From positions 1-64,000 of the forward strand of contig JABARE010000007.1 in assembly GCA_019187365.1 (NCBI GenBank): a DNA stretch of 64,000 nt, written 5' to 3'. This DNA comes from Saprospiraceae bacterium. Lineage in GTDB: Bacteria; Bacteroidota; Bacteroidia; Chitinophagales; Saprospiraceae. The position numbers and the translations under genes are program-made. The notes beneath the pieces were generated by a model. It did no database searches, had not been told where the DNA came from, and worked only from the letters and a program-made list of their open reading frames with translations. Positions 8,892-58,033 of this stretch are shown in pieces; the stretch's first letter is position 1; every line of letters starts with the position of its first letter.

Positions 8892-9668
8892 TCAGAGATC
8901 CTTGTTCCGGAAGATCCGCAGGGACAAGATCAGCGGAAGGAGCGTCCAAAGGAAGAGGATGCCACCCGTATAGAGCATTCCCCGGAAACTCCCGAAAAAC
9001 TCTTTGAAAAGAGCACCGGTATAGCCCATCAGCGCGCTGACGTCCATTCGAAGCATCATCGATACCCTGGTAAGGTCAATGGGATTGAGAGCGGTCAGCA
9101 ACAGGGTCAATCGCTCGAGGGGGTAATCGGAGAAGGTAAAAAGGATCATCAGTACGATGCCGTCGTAAACCAGCGCAAAGTAAAACCACAGCAACAGCAC
9201 GATGCCTATTCCGCGTGCCTTGTCGCGTGCGAGTACGGCAGCACAAAAGGCAATGGCAGTGCAGGCAAAGGTCAGCAGGGTACCGGTAAGCAAAAAGTTG
9301 AATGCCAGCATGTCCTGAAAATGCAACAGCACCGGGATGCCCAGGCCCAGAATAAAAGCCAGAACCAGGGACAGGGCACAGGCGAAGAATTCGCTGAGAA
9401 ATACCTGCCGCCTCCCAAGGGGCTGCGCCAGCAGCATCTCGATGAATTCGTAGGAATTGTAGTAGTGGATCGTCGAAAAGATCATGCTGATCAGCGGAAT
9501 GACGATCAGCTCGATGTTGAGCAGGCTCAACAGGGCTTTATCGGGGTTTTCTTCCAGGTTGAACAGCAACAGGGCGGCCAGCAACTGGAAGCCTGCATAC
9601 AATACGATGACCTTATTGCGGATGATGTCGGAAAATATGTACCGTGTCAGCGTCCACATGGCGGTCAT
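8892..9668 (-). CDS. nosY: NosY-type ABC transporter permease
   Basis: A membrane protein of 258 residues with about six hydrophobic segments (near residues 22-36, 52-68, 95-115, 125-150, 165-185 and 230-250) and little soluble sequence, as in NosY. It follows nosF with an ATGA overlap at 9665-9668, so the two are translationally coupled. Family knowledge: NosDFY form an inner-membrane/periplasmic machine that moves sulfur and/or copper for assembly of the CuZ cluster of nitrous oxide reductase. It is the last gene of the cluster. Confidence 0.88.
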   Translation of the reverse strand: MTAMWTLTRYIFSDIIRNKVIVLYAGFQLLAALLLFNLEENPDKALLSLLNIELIVIPLISMIFSTIHYYNSYEFIEMLLAQPLGRRQVFLSEFFACALSLVLAFILGLGIPVLLHFQDMLAFNFLLTGTLLTFACTAIAFCAAVLARDKARGIGIVLLLWFYFALVYDGIVLMILFTFSDYPLERLTLLLTALNPIDLTRVSMMLRMDVSALMGYTGALFKEFFGSFRGMLYTGGILFLWTLLPLILSLRIFRNKDL

Positions 9669-45865: not shown

Positions 45866-46490
45866 TTAGGAACGGGCTGTTGCAAATATATTCAAAATGC
45901 CCCTGGGGAATCGAAATGGTAACGCACGTTGATGCGTCTGAAGGCCTCAACGAAAACCGATCCAAAAGATGGCGAACCTGTGCAGCGATTTTTGAAATAA
46001 AATTCCCTGTTGCGGGAATCCGATCCCCCGGATTATGCGTTTACAATCAGATGACCGTTTGTCTCCGGACGCCTGAAGCCATTCCCTTGTGCCAAAACAC
46101 CTGTTCCACCAAACCCTTTGCACTTCCACCGTACGAAAATGGACGATTTCAGCTAATTTTACCTGATATTCCAGGCCGGTATGCCCTTTGTCGCACTTAT
46201 TTTTCACCAGGTCTTTAAAAAGTTTGAAAACCAGCATTCTATAGCCGGTATGCCCCCAAGCCTTGAAATGCCTAGGTGTATTAAATGCTCCCGCTTCCTT
46301 TATAAATTTACTCTGCGCACAGGACCTGCCCACCCATCGAAAAGCAGCAAAAAGCCTAAACCCTCACCCATGCCAATACCCCTCAGACAAGACCCTTTCC
46401 TTCTGCCAACGATCCCCTCTGAGTCTCTTCAGCAAAACTCCAGTAAGATCAACAATGGCTACTCAGTAGCGCATATCACCCCTAAATCGG
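45866..46490. other. Gene-free region before the defence island
   Basis: Short frames on both strands (for example minus 45947-46333 and plus 46181-46507) have no recognisable content and probably do not code. Composition shifts from GC-rich to AT-rich across this stretch. Confidence 0.4.
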
Positions 46491-46494
46491 GTGC

Positions 46495-46519
46495 ATACCC
46501 GCTATAGAGTAGCGGGTAT
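46495..46519. repeat. Perfect hairpin at the left edge of the island
   Basis: ATACCCGCT and AGCGGGTAT form a 9-bp perfect stem around the loop ATAGAGT. It lies just outside the left inverted flank of the restriction-modification cassette. Confidence 0.55.
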
Positions 46520-46525
46520 ATGCGA

Positions 46526-46647
46526 GTTGGCAACAAGTGTAAAAAGACAGACGAGCAGGCAGATACGATATTGACAAAATTAAAATAAGAAAGGATTTAG
46601 CTTTTTGATAGGACAGTGCAAATTTGAGGGAATTTATTTTGTTTTTT
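46526..46647 (+). repeat. Left inverted flank of the R-M cassette
   Basis: It starts with GTTGGCAAC (46526-46534) and ends with AATTTATTTTGTTTTTT (46631-46647). Both words recur in inverted orientation and the same order, at similar spacing, at 54752-54760 and 54646-54662, to the right of hsdR. The DNA between them is only weakly similar. Confidence 0.6.
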
Positions 46648-46690
46648 TCTCCCACCCGCAAAAAGAGAAAGAAACCTCGCCCACATTGCA

Positions 46691-46746
46691 GCACATTTGC
46701 AAGCCCCCACGAGCCAACGCTCAGACCAAAGGCTTGCAAAAGAGCT
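46691..46746 (+). repeat. 56-bp direct repeat, left copy
   Basis: The unit begins GCACATTTGCAAGCCC and ends GGCTTGCAAAAGAGCT. It is repeated at 54538-54593 in the same orientation with two mismatches. The two copies bracket the hsd operon. Confidence 0.8.
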
Positions 46747-46815
46747 GCAATTTTGCTTACGCACCCGTGCAAATTTGTTACTTTTGAGTTTTTGAAAAAA
46801 GTATTGGAAAATATT

Positions 46816-48348
46816 ATGACAGATAATTTTGAATTAGAAAAAACGCTTTGGGCAGCAGCCGATAAACTCCGCAATAACATGGATGCGGCGGAATATAAGC
46901 ACGTAGTTTTAGGATTGATTTTCCTAAAATATATCTCTGATGCCTTTGATGAATTGTATAAAAAGTTAGACAGCGAAAAAGCTGAAACAGGAGCAGACCC
47001 TGAAGACAAAGACGAATATACAGCCGAAAGAGTTTTTTACGTTCCACCTCAAGCACGTTGGAACTGGTTACAAGGCAGAGCAAAACTTCCAACAATTGGA
47101 AAAGACATTGACGATGCAATGGACGCTATTGAAAAAGACAATGCTTCGCTAAAAGGAGTTTTACCCAAAGACTATGCACGACCAGCATTAGACAAACAAC
47201 GACTTGGAGAACTAATTGATTTAATTGGCTCAATTACGTTGAGCAAAAACGGGAACGGAAAAGGCAAAGATGTTTTAGGTTTTGTTTTTGAATACTTCTT
47301 GGGACAATTTGCTGATGCCGAAGGCAAAAAAGGTGGACAGTTCTATACTCCTGCAAGTATTGTAAAACTTTTGGTTGCTGTGCTTGCACCTGAACCTGAA
47401 AAAAGAGTTTATGACGGCTGTTGTGGTAGTGGTGGAATGTTTGTGCAAAGCGAAAAGTTTATCGAATTGCACGAACACCGAAAAGGAAAGATTTCAATTT
47501 ACGGACAGGAAAGCAACCCGACTACTCATAAATTAGCCCGAATGAATTTGGCTATTCGTGGGATTGATGCCAAAATTGAACTGGGCGACACATTAATGAA
47601 CGATAAATTCCCTGAATTGAAAGTTGATTATATTCTTGCAAATCCACCTTTTAATGTAAGCGACTACAACATAAACAAAGCTGAAACACACAAATGGAAA
47701 TACGGTATTCCACCGACTGGAAATGCAAACTACGCTTGGTTGCAGCACTTTGTAAGCAAGCTTGCACCATATGGAACAGCAGGAATTGTTTTAGCAAATG
47801 GTAGTATGAGTTCAGAAATTGCAACCGAGGGAGAAATCAGAAAAGCTATGATTGAAGCGGATTTAATTGATTGCATGGTTGCTCTTCCTTCACAATTATT
47901 TTACAATACGCAAATTCCAGCCTGTTTGTGGTTCTTAGCCAGAAACAAAACCGAAACAACTAAATTCAGAAACCGCACAAATGAAGTCCTGTTTATTGAT
48001 GCCCGAGAATTGGGAACAATGATAAGCAGAAAACAAAGGGAGTTAACCGACGATGATATTGAACATGTTTCGGAAATTTTTCACAAATGGAGAAGTAAAG
48101 AATACGAGACTGAATACAATGATGTAGCAGGTTTATGCAAATCAGCAAGTATTCAGGACATTCGCAAAAACAATTACATTTTAACGCCTGGGCGATATAT
48201 TGATTTTAAAGAGGTTGAAGAAGATGGAGAGTCATTTAACGAGAAAATGCAAATGTTAACAGCCAAACTTTCCGAACAAATGCAGAAAGCAAATGATTTG
48301 GACGAAACTATAAAGCAAAATTTAGCAAAAATCGGTTATGAGCTATAA
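46816..48348 (+). CDS. hsdM: Type I restriction-modification DNA methyltransferase subunit
   Basis: The protein has 510 residues from the ATG at 46816 ([20 protein letters not shown]); the frame extending upstream runs through the direct repeat and is not coding. The AdoMet site is [12 protein letters not shown] near residue 200, and the N6-adenine catalytic motif is NPPF near residue 276. The N-terminal helical HsdM_N region and C-terminal helices for HsdS contact are present. A TACTTTTG -7 element at 46779-46786 may drive the operon. Its 3' end overlaps the PIN gene by 11 bases. Confidence 0.96.
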
Positions 48349-48586
48349 ACTTAAAACATTAATCGTTTTTGATACCAATTCTCTGCGAAGCACACAGGAC
48401 GGAGAAGTGGCATATAGTTTCTTTGCTTTTGGTCGTCCATTTCAGGTAATTGAAGAATTTATTTTAGAGAAAAACCTAAACGAAGATATTCATATTGCAA
48501 TCCCAACTTGGGCAATTGAAGAACTTAAAGACCAAAAACAAAGGCAGTACCAAAACGATATTGTTGAATTTCAAAAATTATCCTAA
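48338..48586 (+). CDS. PIN-domain protein, N-terminal part before an in-frame stop
   Basis: This part has 82 residues beginning [15 protein letters not shown], which carries the first PIN catalytic Asp (Asp12 in FDTN). It stops at TAA (48584-48586). The frame then continues past the stop with RLSGMPHIPQITLP and stays open to 49345. Since 48338 and 48599 are in the same frame, the break is a single nonsense codon and not a frameshift. PIN domains are metal-dependent RNases or nucleases of the VapC fold. The insertion between hsdM and hsdS is unusual. Confidence 0.65.
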
Positions 48587-48598
48587 CGACTTTCTGGA

Positions 48599-49345
48599 AT
48601 GCCTCATATTCCTCAAATTACTTTACCACAAGAGGAATTTGATTGCACTACTTACATACAGGAAAAAGCAATAGAATACATTGCCACAAAAGAAATCAAA
48701 CTTTTAGAAATCAAAGAAGAACTTGCAAATACAGTTTTACAAAGTATGATGAAAAGGGTAATGAAAGACCAAAACAAAAAACATCCTTTTGCACATTCTG
48801 GAAAATACAAAGATGCTGGTTTTAAAGACAATATTGTTTGGGAAAGCTTAATGCATTTTGATAGCGTTGCCGACTTTGACAAGGTTATTTTCATTACAAA
48901 AGATACAGATTATACAAACTGTCAATTTGAATTTAAAGAAAAATGGAATAAACACATTGCAATAATCTCTGATGAAAACAACGCTTTGGTTGAAATCAAA
49001 AAGGATTATGAACTTTATATAGCGGAACGGGAAATTTACGACTTTGCTCAAACCGAATACTTTAAAGATTATTTAGCTGATTTGCTCAAGAAAAAATCTG
49101 AAATTCTGATTGAAGAAAACAGTTTTAAAATTGAGAATTTCAAATTGCTTGATACATGCAAGGATATAACACGTATTCCGCCAAACGAGCATATGATTGA
49201 AAGCCTTTATGTAGCTTCCGAAATAGTAATTTACTTTAAGGACAAAGGCAAAAAATCAGAGCAAATTGTAACTGCAACTACTTCATTTGCAGACGAGGAA
49301 AGCAAAGAGATAATTGAAACATTTTACGACTTTGAATTGGTATGA
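48599..49345 (+). CDS. PIN-domain protein, C-terminal part after the in-frame stop
   Basis: This part has 248 residues from an ATG that lies five codons after the stop of the previous part. KVIFITKDTDYTN carries the later PIN acidic residues (KDTDY). The rest is helical with charged repeats (SFADEESKEIIETFYDFEL). It may be made by reinitiation, by readthrough, or not at all if the gene is dead. Its stop overlaps the hsdS start as ATGA, so ribosomes reaching this stop would couple to hsdS. Confidence 0.65.
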   Translation: MPHIPQITLPQEEFDCTTYIQEKAIEYIATKEIKLLEIKEELANTVLQSMMKRVMKDQNKKHPFAHSGKYKDAGFKDNIVWESLMHFDSVADFDKVIFITKDTDYTNCQFEFKEKWNKHIAIISDENNALVEIKKDYELYIAEREIYDFAQTEYFKDYLADLLKKKSEILIEENSFKIENFKLLDTCKDITRIPPNEHMIESLYVASEIVIYFKDKGKKSEQIVTATTSFADEESKEIIETFYDFELV

Positions 49346-50562
49346 GTGAATTAAAAAAATATAAACTTGGCGAATTAGGTACGTTTTTCGGTGGTGTAAC
49401 TTCTATTAAAAAAGAAGATTACGGACACGGAACACCTTTTTTGCCTTACAAAAATGTTTACAAAAACTCAAAGGTTAACATTAACGAACTTGAATTAATG
49501 AATGTTCGTCCGTTGGACTTAGACAGGCGTTCGGCAAAATATGGTGATATTTTCTTTACAGCATCTTCCGAAACACCCGACGAAGTTGCAATGTCTTCGG
49601 TTTTGTTGGATGAAGTTGAAAACCTTACATTCAACGGTTTTTGTAAAAGATTTAGGCTTAATGATTTTAACACGCTATTACCTGAATATGCAAGGTATTT
49701 ATTCCGTGACATTTCTTTCAGAAACGAAGTTTACCAAAAAGCAACTGGCGACATCCGCTTTAATATCAGTCAGGAGAGTTTAGCAGATATTGAAATTGAA
49801 ATCCCAGATATAGTTAATCAAAAAGAAATTGCAGGTATTTTGCTTTCGATTGATGATAAAATTGAAATCAATCTTGAAATGAATGAAAGCCTTGAAACTA
49901 TGGCAAGAGCCATTTTTAAAGAATGGTTTATTGATTTCAACTTCCCAGAATTTAATGGTAATCTAGTAAATGGTTTACCTGAAGGTTGGAATAAAATTAA
50001 AATAAAGGATATTTGCCAAGTAAATACTGGTACTCTAAATTCAAAAGATAAATTTGACAAAATTCATTATATTGAAATCTCTGAAGTTGAAAAAGGAATA
50101 ATAAATAATATTAAAACATATAATCGAGGTGAAGAACCTAGTAGGGCAAGAAGAAAGCTTAAACACGGTGATTGTGTTCTTTCAACGGTTAGACCTAATA
50201 GAGGTTCATATTTCATTTCTTTATTTCCTCCAGAGAATTTAATAGCATCAACAGGTTTTGCAGTATTTTCTCCAACAAAAGTTCCGTTTTCGTTTATTTA
50301 TTTATTTCTTACAAATCCTGAACAATTAGAATTTTATGGCAAAATGGCTGATGGCGCTGCATACCCTGCAATTAATCCATCAGTTATTATGGAAATGGAT
50401 TTTCTTTTACCGCCAGCAAATGTTCTTGAATTATTCCACAATATTGCGGGTAATTCATTAATTAAGTGTTACAATAATTTGGAAGAAAATAAAATTTTAG
50501 CACAAACAAGAGACACTTTATTACCAAAGTTAATGAGTAGTAAAATTAGAATTGAGCAATAA
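49342..50562 (+). CDS. hsdS: Type I restriction-modification specificity subunit
   Basis: The protein has 406 residues with two target recognition domains (about residues 1-150 and 210-350), each followed by a conserved helical spacer: KEIAGILLSIDDKIEINLEM with ETMARAIFKEWFIDF, and NNLEENKILAQTRDTLLPKL. The first TRD opens with YKLGELGTFFGG and the second with WNKIKIKDICQVNTG, the usual Methylase_S starts. It sets the bipartite DNA target for both methylation and cleavage. Its stop overlaps the next gene start (TAATG). Confidence 0.95.
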   Translation: MSELKKYKLGELGTFFGGVTSIKKEDYGHGTPFLPYKNVYKNSKVNINELELMNVRPLDLDRRSAKYGDIFFTASSETPDEVAMSSVLLDEVENLTFNGFCKRFRLNDFNTLLPEYARYLFRDISFRNEVYQKATGDIRFNISQESLADIEIEIPDIVNQKEIAGILLSIDDKIEINLEMNESLETMARAIFKEWFIDFNFPEFNGNLVNGLPEGWNKIKIKDICQVNTGTLNSKDKFDKIHYIEISEVEKGIINNIKTYNRGEEPSRARRKLKHGDCVLSTVRPNRGSYFISLFPPENLIASTGFAVFSPTKVPFSFIYLFLTNPEQLEFYGKMADGAAYPAINPSVIMEMDFLLPPANVLELFHNIAGNSLIKCYNNLEENKILAQTRDTLLPKLMSSKIRIEQ

Positions 50563-51359
50563 TGGAATATGTAATTTCGCCAAAATATTTAATGAAGCTC
50601 ATTTCTGATATAGAAACGGCTCTTTGGAATCAGTTTCAAACCAGCAAATATCGGAATGTTCGCTTTTATATTGAGAAGTGGCATAAACATAATGATGGTT
50701 ATAATTTCAATGATTATTGGGAAAACTTTACTATTTACGAGGACAACAATAAAAATATTGATTTAACGAAAACATTAAATAATATTGATGGTGAGACCCT
50801 TCTAAAAATCGCAATAGATTTAGGTGTTGACACACCTGATTTTATTCCTTCTATCCCTACGTTTCGCAATGAAATAAAAGCAGAATATCCTTCCGCAAGT
50901 TCAACCTTTGAGAGTGCTTTTAAGAAAATAGAATCAGAACCAAATATTGCTATTGGATTGGCTAATTCTGCTTTAGAAAGTATTGTCAAGGAAATTTTAA
51001 AGGATGATAGGATAAATAGTAAAATAAAGAATAACAAAACCTTGTATGATTTAACGAGTGAAATACTGAAAGTTTTTCAATATTTCCCTAATTCTGATAT
51101 GCCAGATGAAATTAAAACAATAGGCAGTTCTTTACTTGCAATAAGTCAGGGTATAGAGAAATTACGAAGCGATAAAACGGATTTTCACGGTAAAACAAAA
51201 GACGATTATAAAATTGAAGACTCAATTTACACATACTTTGTTGTAAATTGTGTTACAACCATTGGTTTGTTTATGAATTCATACTACAAGACAAAATTTC
51301 CAAAACCAGTTGTCGAAAGTGAAGCACCGACAATTGAGGAAGATATTTTGCCTTTTTAA
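50562..51359 (+). CDS. Abortive infection protein with an Abi_C domain
   Basis: The protein has 265 residues. The C-terminal half follows the Abi_C plan: NIAIGLANSALESIVKEIL, KTLYDLTSEILKVF, then IGSSLLAISQGIEKLRSDKT with the trailing DFHGKTKDDY. The N-terminal half is unlike known families. It lies between hsdS and hsdR, with one-base overlap upstream and 11 bases downstream, so it should be expressed with the R-M system. Family knowledge links Abi_C proteins to phage exclusion; the mechanism is not known. Confidence 0.8.
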   Translation: MEYVISPKYLMKLISDIETALWNQFQTSKYRNVRFYIEKWHKHNDGYNFNDYWENFTIYEDNNKNIDLTKTLNNIDGETLLKIAIDLGVDTPDFIPSIPTFRNEIKAEYPSASSTFESAFKKIESEPNIAIGLANSALESIVKEILKDDRINSKIKNNKTLYDLTSEILKVFQYFPNSDMPDEIKTIGSSLLAISQGIEKLRSDKTDFHGKTKDDYKIEDSIYTYFVVNCVTTIGLFMNSYYKTKFPKPVVESEAPTIEEDILPF

Positions 51360-51370
51360 TTGGATAGCAA

Positions 51371-54300
51371 ATGAGAAACAGCATCACTGAAAACGAAATA
51401 GAAGAAATTGCCCTTTCCTACTTGGAAAGTTTAGGGTATAGTTATTTGTTAGGTACTGATATTTCGCCTGATGGAGAACACCCTGAACGCCAATATAACG
51501 AAGTGGTTTTGGCTACCCGTTTGCGTGATGCTATTGATAAATTAAACCCAACAATTACACAGGATGCCAAAGAAGATGCTTTAAAAAAAGTATTACGAAC
51601 CGACAGTCCTAACCTGTTAATCAATAATGAATCGTTTCACAGATATTTAACTGATGGTGTTGATGTAGAAGTAAGAACGGAAAGCGGAATCCGTGGTGAG
51701 AAAGTTTATATTGTTGATTTTGAAACTCCAGAAAACAATGAGTTTTTGGCAATCAACCAGTTTACAATTATTGAAAGTAATCAAAACAAACGCCCCGATA
51801 TTATTTTATTTGTTAACGGTTTGCCTTTGGTTGTTGTTGAACTTAAAAATGCTGTTGATGAAAATGCCACAATAAAATCGGCTTATAACCAATTACAAAC
51901 CTACAAACAAGCCACTCCTTCGCTTTTTACCTATAACGAATTATTGATTGTGAGCGATGGTTGGGATGCACTTTGCGGAACAGTTACAAGCGATTTTGGT
52001 AGGTTTATGTGTTGGAAAACCAAAGACGGAAAAACAACTGCCGACCATTTGCAACCACAAATGGAAGTAATGTTTTTGGGAATGTTAAACAAAAACACAC
52101 TTCTCGACCTTATACGACAATTTATAGTTTTTGAAAAAAGCGATAGTAAAACATTAAAAAAAGTTGCCGCCTACCATCAATATTATGCGGTAAACAAAGC
52201 TGTTGAAAGCACAATCTTAGCCAGTTCAAAAAATGGCGATGGTCGTGGCGGAGTTATTTGGCATACACAAGGTAGTGGTAAAAGTTTGAGTATGGTTTTC
52301 TTTTCGGGCAAACTCATCATTGAGCCGAAAATGGAAAATCCTACTTTGGTAATATTAACCGACCGCAACGACTTGGACGAGCAATTACACGATACATTTT
52401 GCAATTGTCAACAATTACTCAGACAAGAACCACAAAAAGCTGAAAACCGAAGGGATTTAAGACAATTGCTGAAGGTCGCATCGGGCGGAATTGTATTTAC
52501 AACAATTCAGAAATTTATGCCAATGCCTGATGATATTGTGCAAAATGGTGACGTAGCAAATGAACCAAGTGTTGAATACATTGGTGCAGATATTCAGGCA
52601 TTAAGCGAACGAAAAAATATTGTGGTTGTGGCAGACGAAGCACACCGCAGTCAATACGATTTTATTGATGGTTTTGCAAAACATCTTCGTGATGCTTTAC
52701 CAAATGCAACTTTTATTGGTTTTACTGGCACACCGATTGAAAGCGGAGACCGAAATACACAGGCAGTTTTCGGCAACTATGTTGATATATACGATATTCA
52801 ACAAGCAGTAAACGATAAAGCTACTGTTCCAATCTTTTATGAAAGCCGTTTGGCCAAAGTCCATTTTGAAGAAGATGAAAAGGTAAGCTTAGATGAACAG
52901 TTCGAAGAACTAACCGAGGGTGAAGAATTAAGCAATCGTCAACAAATGCGGGCGAAATGGACACGATTGGAAGCCATTGTTGGAAATCCAAACCGTATTC
53001 AGAAAATAGCCGAAGATTTAGTTTATCACTTTGAACAACGCAATGCAGTTTTAGACGGCAAAGCAATGATAGTTTGTATGAGCCGTAGGATTTGTGTTGA
53101 CTTATACGATGCAATAACCAAAATACGTCCTTTATGGCATTCCAAAGATGACGATAAAGGAACTATTAAAGTGATAATGACAGGTAGCAGTAGCGATGTT
53201 CTGAATATGCAACCGCATATCCGTAACAAACAAAGACGAAAAGCTATTGGCGACAGACTTAAAAATCCAGTTGACTCATTAAAATTGGTAATTGTCCGTG
53301 ATATGTGGCTCACTGGTTTTGACGCTCCTTGTTTACATACCTTGTATGTTGACAAACCAATGCGTGGTCATAATTTAATGCAAGCCATTGCAAGGGTTAA
53401 CCGCGTATTTACCGAAGGTAAAGAAGGTGGTTTGGTAGTTGACTATTTAGGCATTGCACAAGAATTAAAATCTGCATTAGCCGATTACACTGCAAGCGGT
53501 GGCGAAGGAAAACCAACACTTGACCAGGAATTAGCCGTTGCAAAAATGTTGGAATTGCACGAGGCAATTGATTATCAATTAAGACATTTCGATTGGCGTA
53601 AATTCTTCAATCTTTCACCAGTTGAGAAATTGAAATTTATTCCAGTAATAGTTGATTACATTTTCAGTCAGGAGAATGGAGAGCAAAGTTTTGTTGAGAA
53701 TACAAAAAACTTATTGAAAGCATTCGCAATTTCAGTACCTCACGAAAAAGCAATGGCAATCCGTGATGATGTTGCTTTGTTTCAAGCTATAAAAACAAGA
53801 CTTGTAAAAATATCGGACAAAAATGAAGGTGGCAAGACAAACGAAGAAATGGAAACGGCTATCAAGCAAATCATTTCCGAAGCCATTACTGCCGAAAATG
53901 TGATTGATATTTTTGATGCAGCAGGATTGAAAAAACCAAATATCGAGATTTTAGACGAGAAGTTTTTGCAAGAACTCAAAGACTTGCCACAAAAGAATTT
54001 AGCTGTTGAGTTACTTAAAAAATTGCTCAAAGATGAAATCAAAAAACGAACTAAAATAAACTTGGTTGAAAGCAAGAAATTTTCGGAAATGCTTGAAGAT
54101 GCAATCAAACGCTATCATAACGGAATGATTGATACGGTTGAATTTCTTGAAAAAGTATTAATTCCGTTTGCCGAGCAAATGAAAGAAGCAGATAAGCGAG
54201 GCGAAAATTTAGGATTAGATTATAGAGAATATGCCTTTTATACTGCATTAGAGGTTAATAATAGTGCTGTTTCAATATTAGGTGACGATATTTTAAAACA

Positions 54301-54514
54301 TATAGCACAAGAACTTTTAAAAACTGTTCGTAGTGGAACAACAATAGATTGGACAATAAAAGAAAGTGTTCAAGCGAATTTGCGTAGAAACATCAGAAGG
54401 ATTCTAAGGAAGTTTGGTTATCCACCAGATTTACAGGAAAAAGCGGTTGAAACAGTTATTACTCAGGCAAAAATGTTAGCAGAGGATTTGGTAAATGGAA
54501 ATGACAATGAATAA
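51371..54514 (+). CDS. hsdR: Type I restriction endonuclease / translocase subunit
   Basis: The protein has 1047 residues. The N-terminal nuclease domain has RPDIILFVNGLPLVVVELK (the D..E-x-K core, about residues 141-160). The superfamily 2 helicase motor shows WHTQGSGKSLSM (Walker A, near 297), VVADEAHRSQ (DEAH-type Walker B, near 420) and FIGFTGTPIE, and in the second lobe MWLTGFDAPCLHTLYVDKP and ARVNRVF. The C-terminal helical region contacts the methylase core. It appears intact. It is the last gene of the operon. Confidence 0.96.
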   Translation: MRNSITENEIEEIALSYLESLGYSYLLGTDISPDGEHPERQYNEVVLATRLRDAIDKLNPTITQDAKEDALKKVLRTDSPNLLINNESFHRYLTDGVDVEVRTESGIRGEKVYIVDFETPENNEFLAINQFTIIESNQNKRPDIILFVNGLPLVVVELKNAVDENATIKSAYNQLQTYKQATPSLFTYNELLIVSDGWDALCGTVTSDFGRFMCWKTKDGKTTADHLQPQMEVMFLGMLNKNTLLDLIRQFIVFEKSDSKTLKKVAAYHQYYAVNKAVESTILASSKNGDGRGGVIWHTQGSGKSLSMVFFSGKLIIEPKMENPTLVILTDRNDLDEQLHDTFCNCQQLLRQEPQKAENRRDLRQLLKVASGGIVFTTIQKFMPMPDDIVQNGDVANEPSVEYIGADIQALSERKNIVVVADEAHRSQYDFIDGFAKHLRDALPNATFIGFTGTPIESGDRNTQAVFGNYVDIYDIQQAVNDKATVPIFYESRLAKVHFEEDEKVSLDEQFEELTEGEELSNRQQMRAKWTRLEAIVGNPNRIQKIAEDLVYHFEQRNAVLDGKAMIVCMSRRICVDLYDAITKIRPLWHSKDDDKGTIKVIMTGSSSDVLNMQPHIRNKQRRKAIGDRLKNPVDSLKLVIVRDMWLTGFDAPCLHTLYVDKPMRGHNLMQAIARVNRVFTEGKEGGLVVDYLGIAQELKSALADYTASGGEGKPTLDQELAVAKMLELHEAIDYQLRHFDWRKFFNLSPVEKLKFIPVIVDYIFSQENGEQSFVENTKNLLKAFAISVPHEKAMAIRDDVALFQAIKTRLVKISDKNEGGKTNEEMETAIKQIISEAITAENVIDIFDAAGLKKPNIEILDEKFLQELKDLPQKNLAVELLKKLLKDEIKKRTKINLVESKKFSEMLEDAIKRYHNGMIDTVEFLEKVLIPFAEQMKEADKRGENLGLDYREYAFYTALEVNNSAVSILGDDILKHIAQELLKTVRSGTTIDWTIKESVQANLRRNIRRILRKFGYPPDLQEKAVETVITQAKMLAEDLVNGNDNE

Positions 54515-54537
54515 AAATTGCCAACGCTCAGTCGTAA

Positions 54538-54593
54538 GCACATTTGCAAGCCCACACGAGCCAACGCTCAGACCAAAGGCTCGCAAAAGAGCT
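54538..54593 (+). repeat. 56-bp direct repeat, right copy
   Basis: This is the same unit as at 46691-46746 in the same orientation, beginning 23 bases after the hsdR stop. Recombination between the copies would delete the whole hsd operon. Confidence 0.8.
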
Positions 54594-54645
54594 TACGCCT
54601 TTCCAGGCCAAGTAGCCCAAAGGGCTTTAGGGTTTGCCGACCCAC

Positions 54646-54760
54646 AAAAAACAAAATAAATTTGTGCTTCGTGGATAGGTTGGTGCGGATTGATAATGAC
54701 AAGAAAATAAAGCTAAATGATTGACAAACAGACAGAAGGAAATGAACACCAGTTGCCAAC
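54646..54760 (-). repeat. Right inverted flank of the R-M cassette
   Basis: AAAAAACAAAATAAATT (54646-54662) and GTTGCCAAC (54752-54760) are the inverted counterparts of the words at 46631-46647 and 46526-46534. Confidence 0.6.
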
Positions 54761-54883
54761 ACGCGGTATAGTTAATTGCCGGTGCAGTGGGTATTCGAGC
54801 GACACAGCTCGTATCAAAAGTAGTTGTAACTTGATAGGAAAGTGCTTCGAAATCGGCAACTAACCATACCGCAAACCGTTGGC
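54755..54883. repeat. Imperfect long inverted repeat, cassette-boundary candidate
   Basis: GCCAACACGCGGTATAGTTA (54755 on, running to TTGCC at 54780) pairs with the complement of the block at 54855-54883 that starts GGCAACTAACCATACC and ends CCGTTGGC. The arms are about 26-29 bp with a 74-base loop. The layout recalls integron attC sites, but the core boxes (GCCAAC/GTTGGC) do not fit the RYYYAAC/GTTRRRY rule. Confidence 0.5.
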
Positions 54884-55084
54884 GATAATGCCTCCGGCAC
54901 GCAGAATCGTCCGCTTTGCGGACTTTACTTCTGCTATTTTCTCCAACGGCCTGGCAGTACGCCTAATTCGTTTTTCGTGCCTGCGGCACTATCCGCCAAT
55001 AGGCGGATAAAACGAATTGTGGCTAAAGGCTCCCGTTGCAAGGATGCAAGCATCTTGCAACTCGCCTTATCCGCCAGGCCGTTA
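54877..55084 (+). repeat. 208-bp hairpin-rich direct repeat, left of fic
   Basis: This is repeated at 56472-56679 with about five mismatches. It contains nested stems: CGGCCTGGC/GCCAGGCCG (54947-54955 and 55073-55081) enclosing AATTCGTTTT/AAAACGAATT (54965-54974 and 55009-55018). Small perfect hairpins are also present: GTCCGCTTTGCGGAC (54909-54923), GTGCCTGCGGCAC (54977-54989) and TATCCGCC-AATA-GGCGGATA (54990-55009). No open frame of note. Confidence 0.8.
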
Positions 55085-55145
55085 GTAACAAAGCGTGACG
55101 AACTCTCGGCAATACAATTTGACACCTAAAAAGAATGACTCTTTT

Positions 55146-55240
55146 CGTATCATAATCAAATCTAAACGTATCAAAACGTATCATTTCGCCCTTGCGGTTT
55201 CAAATCATATTCGTATATTTGCGTATCAAATCGTATCAAA
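55146..55240 (+). promoter_or_regulatory. CGTATCAAA iterons upstream of fic
   Basis: CGTATCAW-type boxes start at 55146, 55167, 55177, 55222 and 55232, with a partial one (CGTATATT) at 55212. Spacings of 10 bases (one helical turn) occur twice, and the last box abuts the ATG. The boxes cover the promoter, which suggests an operator for an autoregulator. Confidence 0.6.
55192..55221 (+). promoter_or_regulatory. Bacteroidota promoter of fic
   Basis: TTG (55192-55194), 19 bases, then TATATTTG (55214-55221) matches the -33/-7 consensus closely and ends 19 bases before the ATG, giving a very short leader. Confidence 0.65.
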
Positions 55241-56281
55241 ATGGACAATGAGGTATATAATTTTAAACTGAATATTGATTGGAAGCTGATTCACTTAATT
55301 AGTGAAATAGACCGCTTTGATGCAAGTTGGACAGCTATTGAACGAAAAGAAGGACAAAGTCTTAAAGAGTTAAAAAGTATTGCTACAGTGCGAAGCGTAG
55401 GGGCTTCAAACCGAATTGAAGGCAACAAAATGAGCGATGAGGAGGTTGACGTGTTACTTCAAAAAATTGACATAACAAAACTTACCGACAGAGATTCGCA
55501 GGAAGTGGTCGGTTATTTTGAAGTATTGGATTTGATTTCGGAATCTTACGAAAACATCAATCTTACCGAAAGTCACATCAAAAGTTTACACAATAGTTTG
55601 ATGAAATATAGTGCCAAAGACCAATGGCACAAAGGCAATTATAAGGCACATAGCAACGCAGTTGAAGCCTCATTTCCTGACGGCACACGACGAATCATTT
55701 TTCAAACAACCGAAGCGGGATTTGCAACCGAAGATGCCATAAGAGAGCTGCTCAATTGGTTTAATTCAGAAACGGTAGTACATCCCTTAATCAAAATAGC
55801 TTCCTTTGTCTATGATTTTTTAAGCGTTCATCCTTTTCAAGACGGAAATGGAAGGTTAAGTCGTTTAATTTCAACGCTATTATTACTCAAAAACGGATAT
55901 AAATGGATACAATACGTGAGTTTTGAACACGAAATTGAAAACCGGAAAAGCGAATATTATCAGATTCTTAGAAGCTGTCAAGCACAACGCCCTAACGAAG
56001 ATGTAACTGTTTGGATGCAGTTCTTTTTGAGTTGCTTGTCAAATATTCAATCCCAACTTATGACGAAATTGAATAAAAGCGGTTTAGAAACACAGCTTTT
56101 GCCCAAGGAAAAATCAATCTTTACGATTATTCAAAACCGCCCCAACATTCAGTCGGGAGAAATTTCCGAAAAATTGGCCATACCATTACCCACCGTAAAA
56201 CGTATCCTGTCGGAGTTAATCAATAAAGGATTGATTGTAAAACAAGGTAGCGGACGAAATGTGAGTTACACGATAAAATAG
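55241..56281 (+). CDS. Fic-domain protein (probable AMP transferase) with winged-helix tail
   Basis: The protein has 346 residues. The Fic core motif HPFQDGNGRLSRL (about residue 197) has all catalytic residues (His, Asp, Gly-Asn-Gly-Arg). N-terminal to it, TVRSVGASNRIEGNKMS (about residues 48-64) fits the (S/T)xxxE(G/N) inhibitory helix, so this is a self-inhibited class II Fic protein. The C-terminal ~70 residues (SGEISEKLAIPLPTVKRILS) look like a winged helix-turn-helix, which could bind the iterons in front of the gene. Fic enzymes usually transfer AMP to target proteins. It lies alone between the two 208-bp repeats. Confidence 0.93.
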   Translation: MDNEVYNFKLNIDWKLIHLISEIDRFDASWTAIERKEGQSLKELKSIATVRSVGASNRIEGNKMSDEEVDVLLQKIDITKLTDRDSQEVVGYFEVLDLISESYENINLTESHIKSLHNSLMKYSAKDQWHKGNYKAHSNAVEASFPDGTRRIIFQTTEAGFATEDAIRELLNWFNSETVVHPLIKIASFVYDFLSVHPFQDGNGRLSRLISTLLLLKNGYKWIQYVSFEHEIENRKSEYYQILRSCQAQRPNEDVTVWMQFFLSCLSNIQSQLMTKLNKSGLETQLLPKEKSIFTIIQNRPNIQSGEISEKLAIPLPTVKRILSELINKGLIVKQGSGRNVSYTIK

Positions 56282-56471
56282 ATAAAGATAAAAGTTAACA
56301 ATACCATTGTATAAAAAGAATAGAAATCGCCCAGCTACTAACAGCACCTACAAGAAATTGGCGGTTCAGTGCTCCGCAGACAGTTTTGTGGTTAACCAAA
56401 GTTTGGTTCTCCGCATCAATCCCGCAGTATTGCGGGATGGTGAAAATCGCCAAATTCTTGTGGCTGCAAAA

Positions 56472-56679
56472 CGTTGGCGAAAATGCCTCCGGCACGCAGA
56501 ATCGTCCGCTTTGCGGACTTTACTTCTGCTATTTTCGCCAACTGCCTGGCAGTACGCCTAATTCGTTTTTCGTGCCTGCGGCACTATCCGCCAACAGGCG
56601 GATAAAACGAATTGTGGCTAAAGGCTCCCGTTGCAAGGATGCAAGCATCTTGCAACTCGCCTTATCCGCCAGGCCGTTA
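56472..56679 (+). repeat. 208-bp hairpin-rich direct repeat, right of fic
   Basis: This is a near-identical partner of 54877-55084 in the same orientation. One base change weakens the outer stem (ACTGCC for ACGGCC), and the loop of one hairpin differs (AACA for AATA). It ends 10 bases before the stop of the convergent esterase-like gene. The bases between fic and this copy (56282-56471) hold no gene. Confidence 0.8.
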
Positions 56680-56688
56680 TTTCTCAAA

Positions 56689-57867
56689 TCAATTAAAAAC
56701 AATTTTAAGATTACTTTGTAACCTTACATTTTGAATTTTAACAATAAATAATCCGGAGCCTAACATTTTTCTATCCAGAATGAAGTTGCTCTCCGTCTTT
56801 GCTTTTGCCTGGTAGATTGTTTGTCCGCAACCATTCAAAACGGTAAGATTATATGGAAGATTTAAATCCCCATCATCCATTTGGAAATAAATTCTTTCAT
56901 TTGCGGGATTGGGATATGCAGATACAGATAATGTTTTACCCGTAGGTTCTTCCGTTTCAACTATAGAAGATTGCTTAAAAAACTCCCAAAACAATTTGGC
57001 AGCTTCCAGAGGGTAGTTATTTCCATTTGGATACTGATGGCCCATATTTTTTACTAAAGTAAAAATATATGGACTGGTGCTGGATCCTCCTGTTTGGGAT
57101 TCCTTCCAGTGATACGTTTGTGTTATTTGGCTTTCACTATGATCGAAGGTATGGGTTAAACCCTGGCAGCCAAGTATCCGATTCAGATAAACTTTTAAAT
57201 ATTCAAGTATCGAGTCACCATAAAAAGGCAATTCGGTAAACGGTGGTACAATAAACATATTGTCAGAGGTGCCTAACATAAACCAAAAGGGGATGCGTCG
57301 TACAGGATTCGTGACGGAATCCGACTTGACCAATATGCCCCCGCAGCCAGCCGCAGCAGAAAACACATCACCGGCATCCATTGCCATTTTATGGACCATT
57401 GCCGAACCATTGGAAAATCCCGTTATGTACATTTTCGAACTGTTTACAGGAAAAGTATCTCTGACTCTTCTAATCAATTCCTTTAAAAACTTAACATCGT
57501 CGACATAGTTTTGAGGAGGTCCAGAGCAAGGTTGATCCGTTACATGTCCATTGACCCATCTGGCAATGACTTTTTCGACACTGTCTTCCGTTACACACCA
57601 TTTTAGAGAAGAAGGATACAAAGTAATAAAATTTTCACTTTCACCAAGTTCCTTCCAACCGAAGATATTGTAAGGTTCATCACTATCGTGGGCTGAGCTA
57701 TGCAATACCATTACAACAGGATATCCTCCTGGAGGCGGTGCCTTTCTGGGTATCTGGATAATAGACTCCCGCAATCTTCCTTCAAATAAAAATTTGACAT
57801 CTATCCGCTGTCCGATAATGCTATTTACAAAAAATAGCAAAAAAAAGAGTTGAAGATAATTTTTCAT
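56689..57867 (-). CDS. Secreted PHB-depolymerase/feruloyl-esterase-like protein with T9SS tail
   Basis: The protein has about 392 residues from the ATG at 57867 (MKNYLQLFFLLFFVNSIIGQ, a signal peptide). An alpha/beta-hydrolase of the esterase/PHB depolymerase type is shown by VVMVLHSSAHDSDEPYN, MYITGFSNGSAMVHKMA (GxSxG nucleophile Ser) and LVKNMGHQYPNG (catalytic His). The C-terminal ~80 residues are a T9SS sorting domain (SAYPNPANERIYF). The substrate may be a polyester or feruloylated polysaccharide; the nearby GH28-like gene makes plant polysaccharide plausible. Confidence 0.85.
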   Translation of the reverse strand: MKNYLQLFFLLFFVNSIIGQRIDVKFLFEGRLRESIIQIPRKAPPPGGYPVVMVLHSSAHDSDEPYNIFGWKELGESENFITLYPSSLKWCVTEDSVEKVIARWVNGHVTDQPCSGPPQNYVDDVKFLKELIRRVRDTFPVNSSKMYITGFSNGSAMVHKMAMDAGDVFSAAAGCGGILVKSDSVTNPVRRIPFWFMLGTSDNMFIVPPFTELPFYGDSILEYLKVYLNRILGCQGLTHTFDHSESQITQTYHWKESQTGGSSTSPYIFTLVKNMGHQYPNGNNYPLEAAKLFWEFFKQSSIVETEEPTGKTLSVSAYPNPANERIYFQMDDGDLNLPYNLTVLNGCGQTIYQAKAKTESNFILDRKMLGSGLFIVKIQNVRLQSNLKIVFN

Positions 57868-58033
57868 AAACACTATTTTTAGATAATTAATAATCTGGTG
57901 CAGTTTAACGCCCCTTGGCTAATTACCCAAATTTAAGGTAGAATTTATACACTACCAAATAATTTAGCCGAAAGGCCCTGATTTTATTCCTGAATTTACT
58001 CTGAAGAAGCTAAATTATCCTTATATTTGAGTG

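Follow-up and report, generated by a model that had tools for sequence, protein, structure and literature searches.

In the Saprospiraceae bacterium genome (GCA_019187365.1), a single fic gene lies between two nearly identical, hairpin-rich repeats, next to a type I restriction-modification (R-M) operon. This raises the question of whether the repeats delimit an excisable module, or whether they belong to a larger gene-capture system. The window analysed here is a stretch of 64,000 nucleotides, positions 1 to 64,000 of contig JABARE010000007.1. The original prediction, made from the sequence alone, was that two 208-bp repeats differing at about five positions and folding into nested stems, with fic alone between them, formed a gene cassette or excisable module adjacent to a second cassette, the R-M operon. 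It further suggested that the repeat was a single-strand recombination substrate or a structured RNA.

I first verified the repeats themselves. The observation held: two direct repeats of 214 nt are present, 98% identical and 1595 nt apart start to start, and when aligned at their functional ends they are 203-bp units with four differences. Only one long ORF lies between them, encoding a Fic/DOC protein. Genome-wide the repeat occurs exactly twice, and among the 149 other genomes searched it was found only in one congener (hereafter G005; relatives are numbered likewise), which has two more copies beside other genes, including one encoding an FRG-domain protein. Searches of plasmid and phage collections returned no match to the repeat or to the fic region. 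Two further, different imperfect hairpins running from AAC to GTT, not noticed in the original prediction, are found directly upstream of the two copies, and a scan for AAC...GTT hairpins in 16 kb returned only these two at the chosen threshold. In G005 the repeat again follows such hairpins, with other stem sequences, and both boundaries of all four repeat copies fall at GTT. The features of the array are listed in Table 1.

Table 1. Coordinates of the array and associated elements; C3, C8, C11 and C26 are other contigs of the same genome, and ^ marks the recombination point.
Feature	Location	Positions	Strand	Sequence elements	Supporting observations
Hairpin-bearing sequence after which the array starts (attI-like or remnant attC; identity uncertain)	Window	46460-46525	+	CGCATATCACCC...GGGTATATGCGA^GTT	Related copies directly precede two arrays in G005 contig C19
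Cassette 1: type I R-M operon (HsdM, PIN-domain fragments, HsdS, Abi_C/AbiJ-like, HsdR)	Window	46526-54877	+	5' end GTTGGCAA pairs with R'' TTGCCAAC	
57-bp sequence near both ends of cassette 1	Window	46690-46746 and 54537-54593		Contains AGCACATTTGCAAGCC...GCCAACGCTCAGACCAAAGGC	96% identical
PIN-domain gene in two reading frames, may be broken	Window	48338-48586 and 48599-49345			
attC of cassette 1	Window	54751-54884	+	R'' AGTTGCCAAC; imperfect 120-nt stem; C^GTT at 54877/54878	Fold of hairpin 54758-54880, z = -2.9; covariance model 58.6 bits, E 7e-11 (not in training set)
Direct repeats, 214 nt	Window	54871-55084 and 56466-56679			
Gene-less cassette, copy 1 (203 bp)	Window	54878-55080	+	R' GTTGGCGATAAT; R'' ATTTTCTCCAAC (54936-54947); stem GGCCTGGC...GCCAGGCC^GTT	Folds as single-stranded DNA at -58.6 kcal/mol, z = -8.2 against shuffles; differs from copy 2 at 54886, 54942, 54948 and 55000
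fic cassette	Window	55081-56472	+	5' end GTTAGTA complementary to R'' TACTAAC	
Repeated CGTATCA-type motifs just upstream of fic, possibly operator sites of the fic winged helix	Window	55143-55238		41-nt direct repeat	
fic gene (346 aa; Fic/DOC domain plus winged HTH, SoFic-like)	Window	55241-56281	+		
attC of the fic cassette	Window	56334-56481	+	AACAGCACCTACAAGAA...TTCTTGTGGCTGCAAAAC^GTT	Fold of hairpin 56340-56475, z = -4.7; covariance model 95.2 bits, E 5e-20 (not in training set); left arm exact or near-exact in 32 of 149 relatives
Gene-less cassette, copy 2 (203 bp)	Window	56473-56675	+	R' GTTGGCGAAAAT perfectly complementary to R'' ATTTTCGCCAAC (12 bp)	
Right boundary of the array	Window	56676-56682	+	GTTATTT	
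Esterase-like ORF, next gene	Window	56689-57873	-		
Tyrosine recombinase, 605 aa	C8	117157-118971			
151-bp gene-less element in attI	C8	119001-119152			
Apparent integrase/attI platforms	C11, C26, C3, C8	C11:698-1222, C26:698-1219, C3:92901, C8:117157			Some truncated after about 175 aa; each with the 151-bp element in attI

I next asked if the pieces between GTT points are organized as integron cassettes. In that case the first bases of a cassette (R') must be complementary to the bases before AAC in its own hairpin (R''), since these form the R box of the circular form. All four consecutive pieces of the window (R-M operon, repeat, fic, repeat) show this complementarity over their first 7-12 bases, with two mismatches in copy 1 of the repeat, and for the two gene-bearing cassettes the paired boxes are 1.3 and 8.2 kb apart. 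A corresponding pair, GTTATAGGCT / AGCCTATAAC, is found in G005. Over 156 hairpin sites in 35 sequences, the 7 bases after GTT match the complement of the next R'' at 5 or more positions in 64 of 94 consecutive pairs, against about 10% of non-consecutive pairs; each array was counted on both strands, such that roughly half of the pairs are independent. Contiguous chains include four cassettes after the integrase in G050, two each in G073 and G087, several in the single-contig genome G134, and about eight in G132. A looser cassette detector (k = 9, one mismatch, arm score 8) gave many chance hits on both real and reversed sequence (241 on the control), and I therefore relied only on the contiguous chains and the consecutive-pair test. 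In all 27 of the 27 cassettes possessing an ORF, the largest ORF lies on the attC strand.

The attC-like hairpins were then compared to each other. Twenty-eight sites have exactly 121 nt from AAC to GTT. The proposed structure, with 24 pairs, is 87.3% paired, against at most 39.5% when one arm is slid; 120 cells show changes on both sides (35 in shuffles, at most 27 in slid controls), and the covariation is 0.496 against 0.121. Position pair 24/112 is unpaired in 27 of 28 sites, and the spacer next to the R box is asymmetric, with one base on the left and five on the right. A covariance model built from these (termed R1) finds 19 sites in this genome, including the two window hairpins, and sites in 103 of 198 genomes of the phylum. 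A search with an exact left-arm pattern gave at least 116 stretches, nearly all from Bacteroidota of several orders and including hits in Runella zeae and Pedobacter glucosidilyticus, and a looser version gave about 75 sites in 32 of 149 relatives, with none for the reversed pattern. The exact arm is also found in MAG contigs labelled Limnohabitans and Deltaproteobacteria, which could reflect transfer or a binning error, and in nine IMG/VR viral contigs, suggesting that phages may carry such cassettes. The R boxes do not keep the integron consensus, as only 8 of 66 sites fit RYYYAAC and 4 of 66 fit GTTRRRY; only AAC/GTT is kept.

No integrase is found among the ORFs listed between 48 and 62 kb of the window, which with two attCs within about 4 kb has the composition of a CALIN (a cluster of attCs without integrase). 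However, the genome encodes a tyrosine recombinase on contig C8. Relatives of this protein at 36–43% identity in G050, G073, G087 and G060 (47% in G043) are followed within about 25–60 bp by attI-like ends (GGATATAAGGRA^GTT or similar; GGATATAAGGGA^GTT, GGATATGGAA^GTT, ATAAACAA^GTT), and then by cassettes with perfect or near-perfect R'/R'' complementarity. In G134, several consecutive cassettes lie downstream of a related recombinase. Many short-read contigs of relatives end shortly after the gene, as would be expected if repeated arrays follow. The G060 integrase is interrupted near its 3' end by an insertion, so that this platform may be degraded. I initially considered the hairpin beside the C8 integrase (locus L013, positions 9028–9149) to be attI itself, but this was rejected, as it corresponds to a dispersed 151-bp element inserted into attI. 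This genome seems to hold at least four such integrase/attI platforms.

The catalytic residues R, H, R, H and Y are conserved in these integrases. Nonetheless, all 20 that were compared lack an insertion of roughly 41 residues between the catalytic motifs that all 20 canonical IntI of the same phylum possess, and the same gap is seen against the IntI4 structure 2A3V. This insertion is the IntI additional domain (I2 helix region), described as defining and needed for activity (PMC9668308, PMC7790495, PMC2426708; Messier and Roy 2001, as cited there). In a phylogenetic tree the two sets group together apart from the Xer-type proteins of this genome (96/85) and IntI is monophyletic (100/100), but the order among the Bacteroidota proteins is not resolved, and the tree does not settle whether they are sister to, or paraphyletic with respect to, IntI. 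The predicted structure (pLDDT 78, pTM 0.43) shows three N-terminal beta-beta-alpha-type repeats before the recombinase fold; five of 20 members match Pfam HARP (best E 8e-9), and a W-x-W motif recurs in most. XerA (5hxy, 4a8e) and IntI4 are the best structural matches. As in XerA/XerC-type recombinases the additional domain is absent, but the Bacteroidota proteins have the SPLDxL C-terminal tail shared with IntI, and sit at cassette arrays. TnpF-type recombinases on Acinetobacter plasmids are 48% identical to this integrase over about 220 aa, and in at least one listed record a related protein lies beside an IS91-family transposase.

A second gene-less element of about 151 bp (GATGTGGCGCC...GGCGATCC) was identified, with 37 matches in this genome, about 30 of them full length at 99–100%, five in G005 and none in the other seven genomes of the genus. 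In 27 of 27 copies inspected it is followed by GTT and preceded by an attC end (23) or by attI (4), always in the same orientation. In circular form it has R'' CCACATC, stem GGATCGCCGG/CCGGCGATCC and R' GATGTGG, with a GAT/ATC core. The 203-bp unit has the same plan with a GTT/AAC core, and lies after four different attCs in one orientation. Both read best as minimal cassettes that hold only a recombination site, and their near-identical copies suggest recent movement in this lineage. Gene-less cassettes also occur in Vibrio superintegrons, and elements of the IS1111-attC group likewise insert at the attC recombination point without a cargo gene; the units described here have no transposase, are 151–203 bp long, and possess their own R'/R'' and stem.

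Taken together, I propose with high confidence that the stretch from the R-M operon to the second repeat is an array of four integron-type cassettes without an adjacent integrase. The interpretation in the original prediction is partly supported. It correctly identified fic as a gene cassette next to a second one, and the repeat as resembling a single-strand recombination substrate, but the two repeats do not delimit one module: fic ends in its own attC, and each repeat is a further, gene-less cassette inserted at the C^GTT point of an attC-like hairpin. The condition set beforehand for rejecting it, a repeat found only twice anywhere and without structural conservation, does not hold, given the copies in G005 and the covariation and wide distribution of the attC hairpins. 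In this model each cassette is a circularisable unit bounded by GTT, whose attC folds into a hairpin, and whose R' pairs with R'' in the circle; a tyrosine recombinase of the Bacteroidota type, encoded on contig C8, probably cuts the folded attC at C/G^TT and joins cassettes to attI or to other attCs, while the 203-bp unit could spread to attC points as a satellite. The sequence analysis establishes the cassette anatomy, the R'/R'' complementarity, the covariation, the position of the integrase next to attI and arrays in relatives, and the orientation and target specificity of the gene-less units. In contrast, recombination itself, catalysis, the choice of strand (predicted stability slightly favours the bottom strand, in 19 of 28 sites, which is no proof) and the notion that the C8 enzyme moves the cassettes of the window are inferred; that the domain-less integrase recombines the folded attCs is likely. 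Some features fit less well. The attI next to the C8 integrase is interrupted by the 151-bp element, the hairpin of the 203-bp unit is atypical, with no asymmetric spacer and dominant internal stems, a multi-gene first cassette of 8.35 kb is unusually large, and the enzyme is linked to the array only by the shared attC type in relatives (G060, G108, G134). A comparison based on the flanking esterase gave no clear orthologous empty site, its homologues in congeners being only 32–51% identical.

The cassettes could alternatively have been captured by an ordinary IntI acting in trans or since lost, making the window an ordinary CALIN. Canonical IntI does exist in the phylum, in 84 of 296 genomes over the curated cut-off, and the logic of the array is the same. 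This is nonetheless unlikely: no canonical IntI is found in this genome, where the TIGR02249 profile matches only below cut-off; it also matches in all 14 control genomes, such that this match is no evidence by itself. G087 and G134, whose arrays lie next to the other recombinase, have none either. Furthermore, R1 matches 0 of 20 canonical IntI loci but many loci with the other recombinase, and hairpins beside the canonical IntI genes often end in GTTAGGC-type boxes. R1-type attCs also occur in genomes of other classes that have canonical IntI.

It is less likely still that the hairpins are a miniature transposable element (MITE, REP/RAYT type or IS-attC type) inserted after genes, despite the nearly identical dispersed copies without genes, as the gene-less units show a single orientation and a fixed attC/attI^GTT target, the R'/R'' complementarity is specific to each cassette rather than a fixed terminal repeat, and the attC stems vary in sequence with compensation, each gene having its own. 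A structured RNA (terminator or regulatory RNA), with no part for recombination, would agree with the strong predicted fold, and transcripts of arrays would contain the hairpins; however, no Rfam family matches near its gathering score, and the conserved features are at the recombination point and in complementarity to bases several kb upstream, which an RNA role does not explain. This is the least likely of the three.

The array is therefore of integron type by its anatomy, with tandem cassettes of mostly one gene on one strand, imperfect-palindrome attCs and attI next to a tyrosine recombinase, but it is not a member of the canonical integron family, since the integrase lacks the additional domain and the R boxes do not fit the consensus, both defining features. 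The integrase is also often about 600 aa long, attI lies 3' of its gene with cassettes in the same direction, and the attCs are mostly 121 nt with a conserved interior. I found no description of such a system in the open-access literature searched, subscription papers and preprints not being covered. A more speculative reading, which I consider possible but tentative, is that Bacteroidota possess a separate integron lineage capturing genes through folded single-stranded attC hairpins without the I2 helix held to be the innovation that made this possible. Recognition of the hairpin would then have passed to the HARP-like N-terminal repeats (HARP domains in SMARCAL1-type helicases bind branched DNA), gene-less satellite cassettes would parasitise the system, and the lineage may resemble the pre-I2 ancestor of IntI.

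Integron surveys rely on the IntI additional domain and on canonical attC models, and report almost none in Bacteroidetes (one complete integron, in Salinibacter; PMC9024848). The attC type described here matches about half of the phylum genomes sampled, and may have been missed by such searches. It has been stated that a direct proof linking I2 to single-strand recombination is not available, because deleting I2 abolishes IntI1 activity (PMC7790495); a natural relative without I2, attached to folded attC-like sites, provides the missing comparison. Fic proteins and restriction systems recur in these arrays: in addition to the window genes, G005 has an FRG-domain protein with the same attC type, and a Mrr-like type IV nuclease and a SoFic-type protein in the same region. 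This cargo (type I R-M, Fic, FRG, Mrr, AbiJ-like) points to a shared pool of defence genes, and the gene-less units would be satellites of an integron, with about 30 full copies of one type in this genome.
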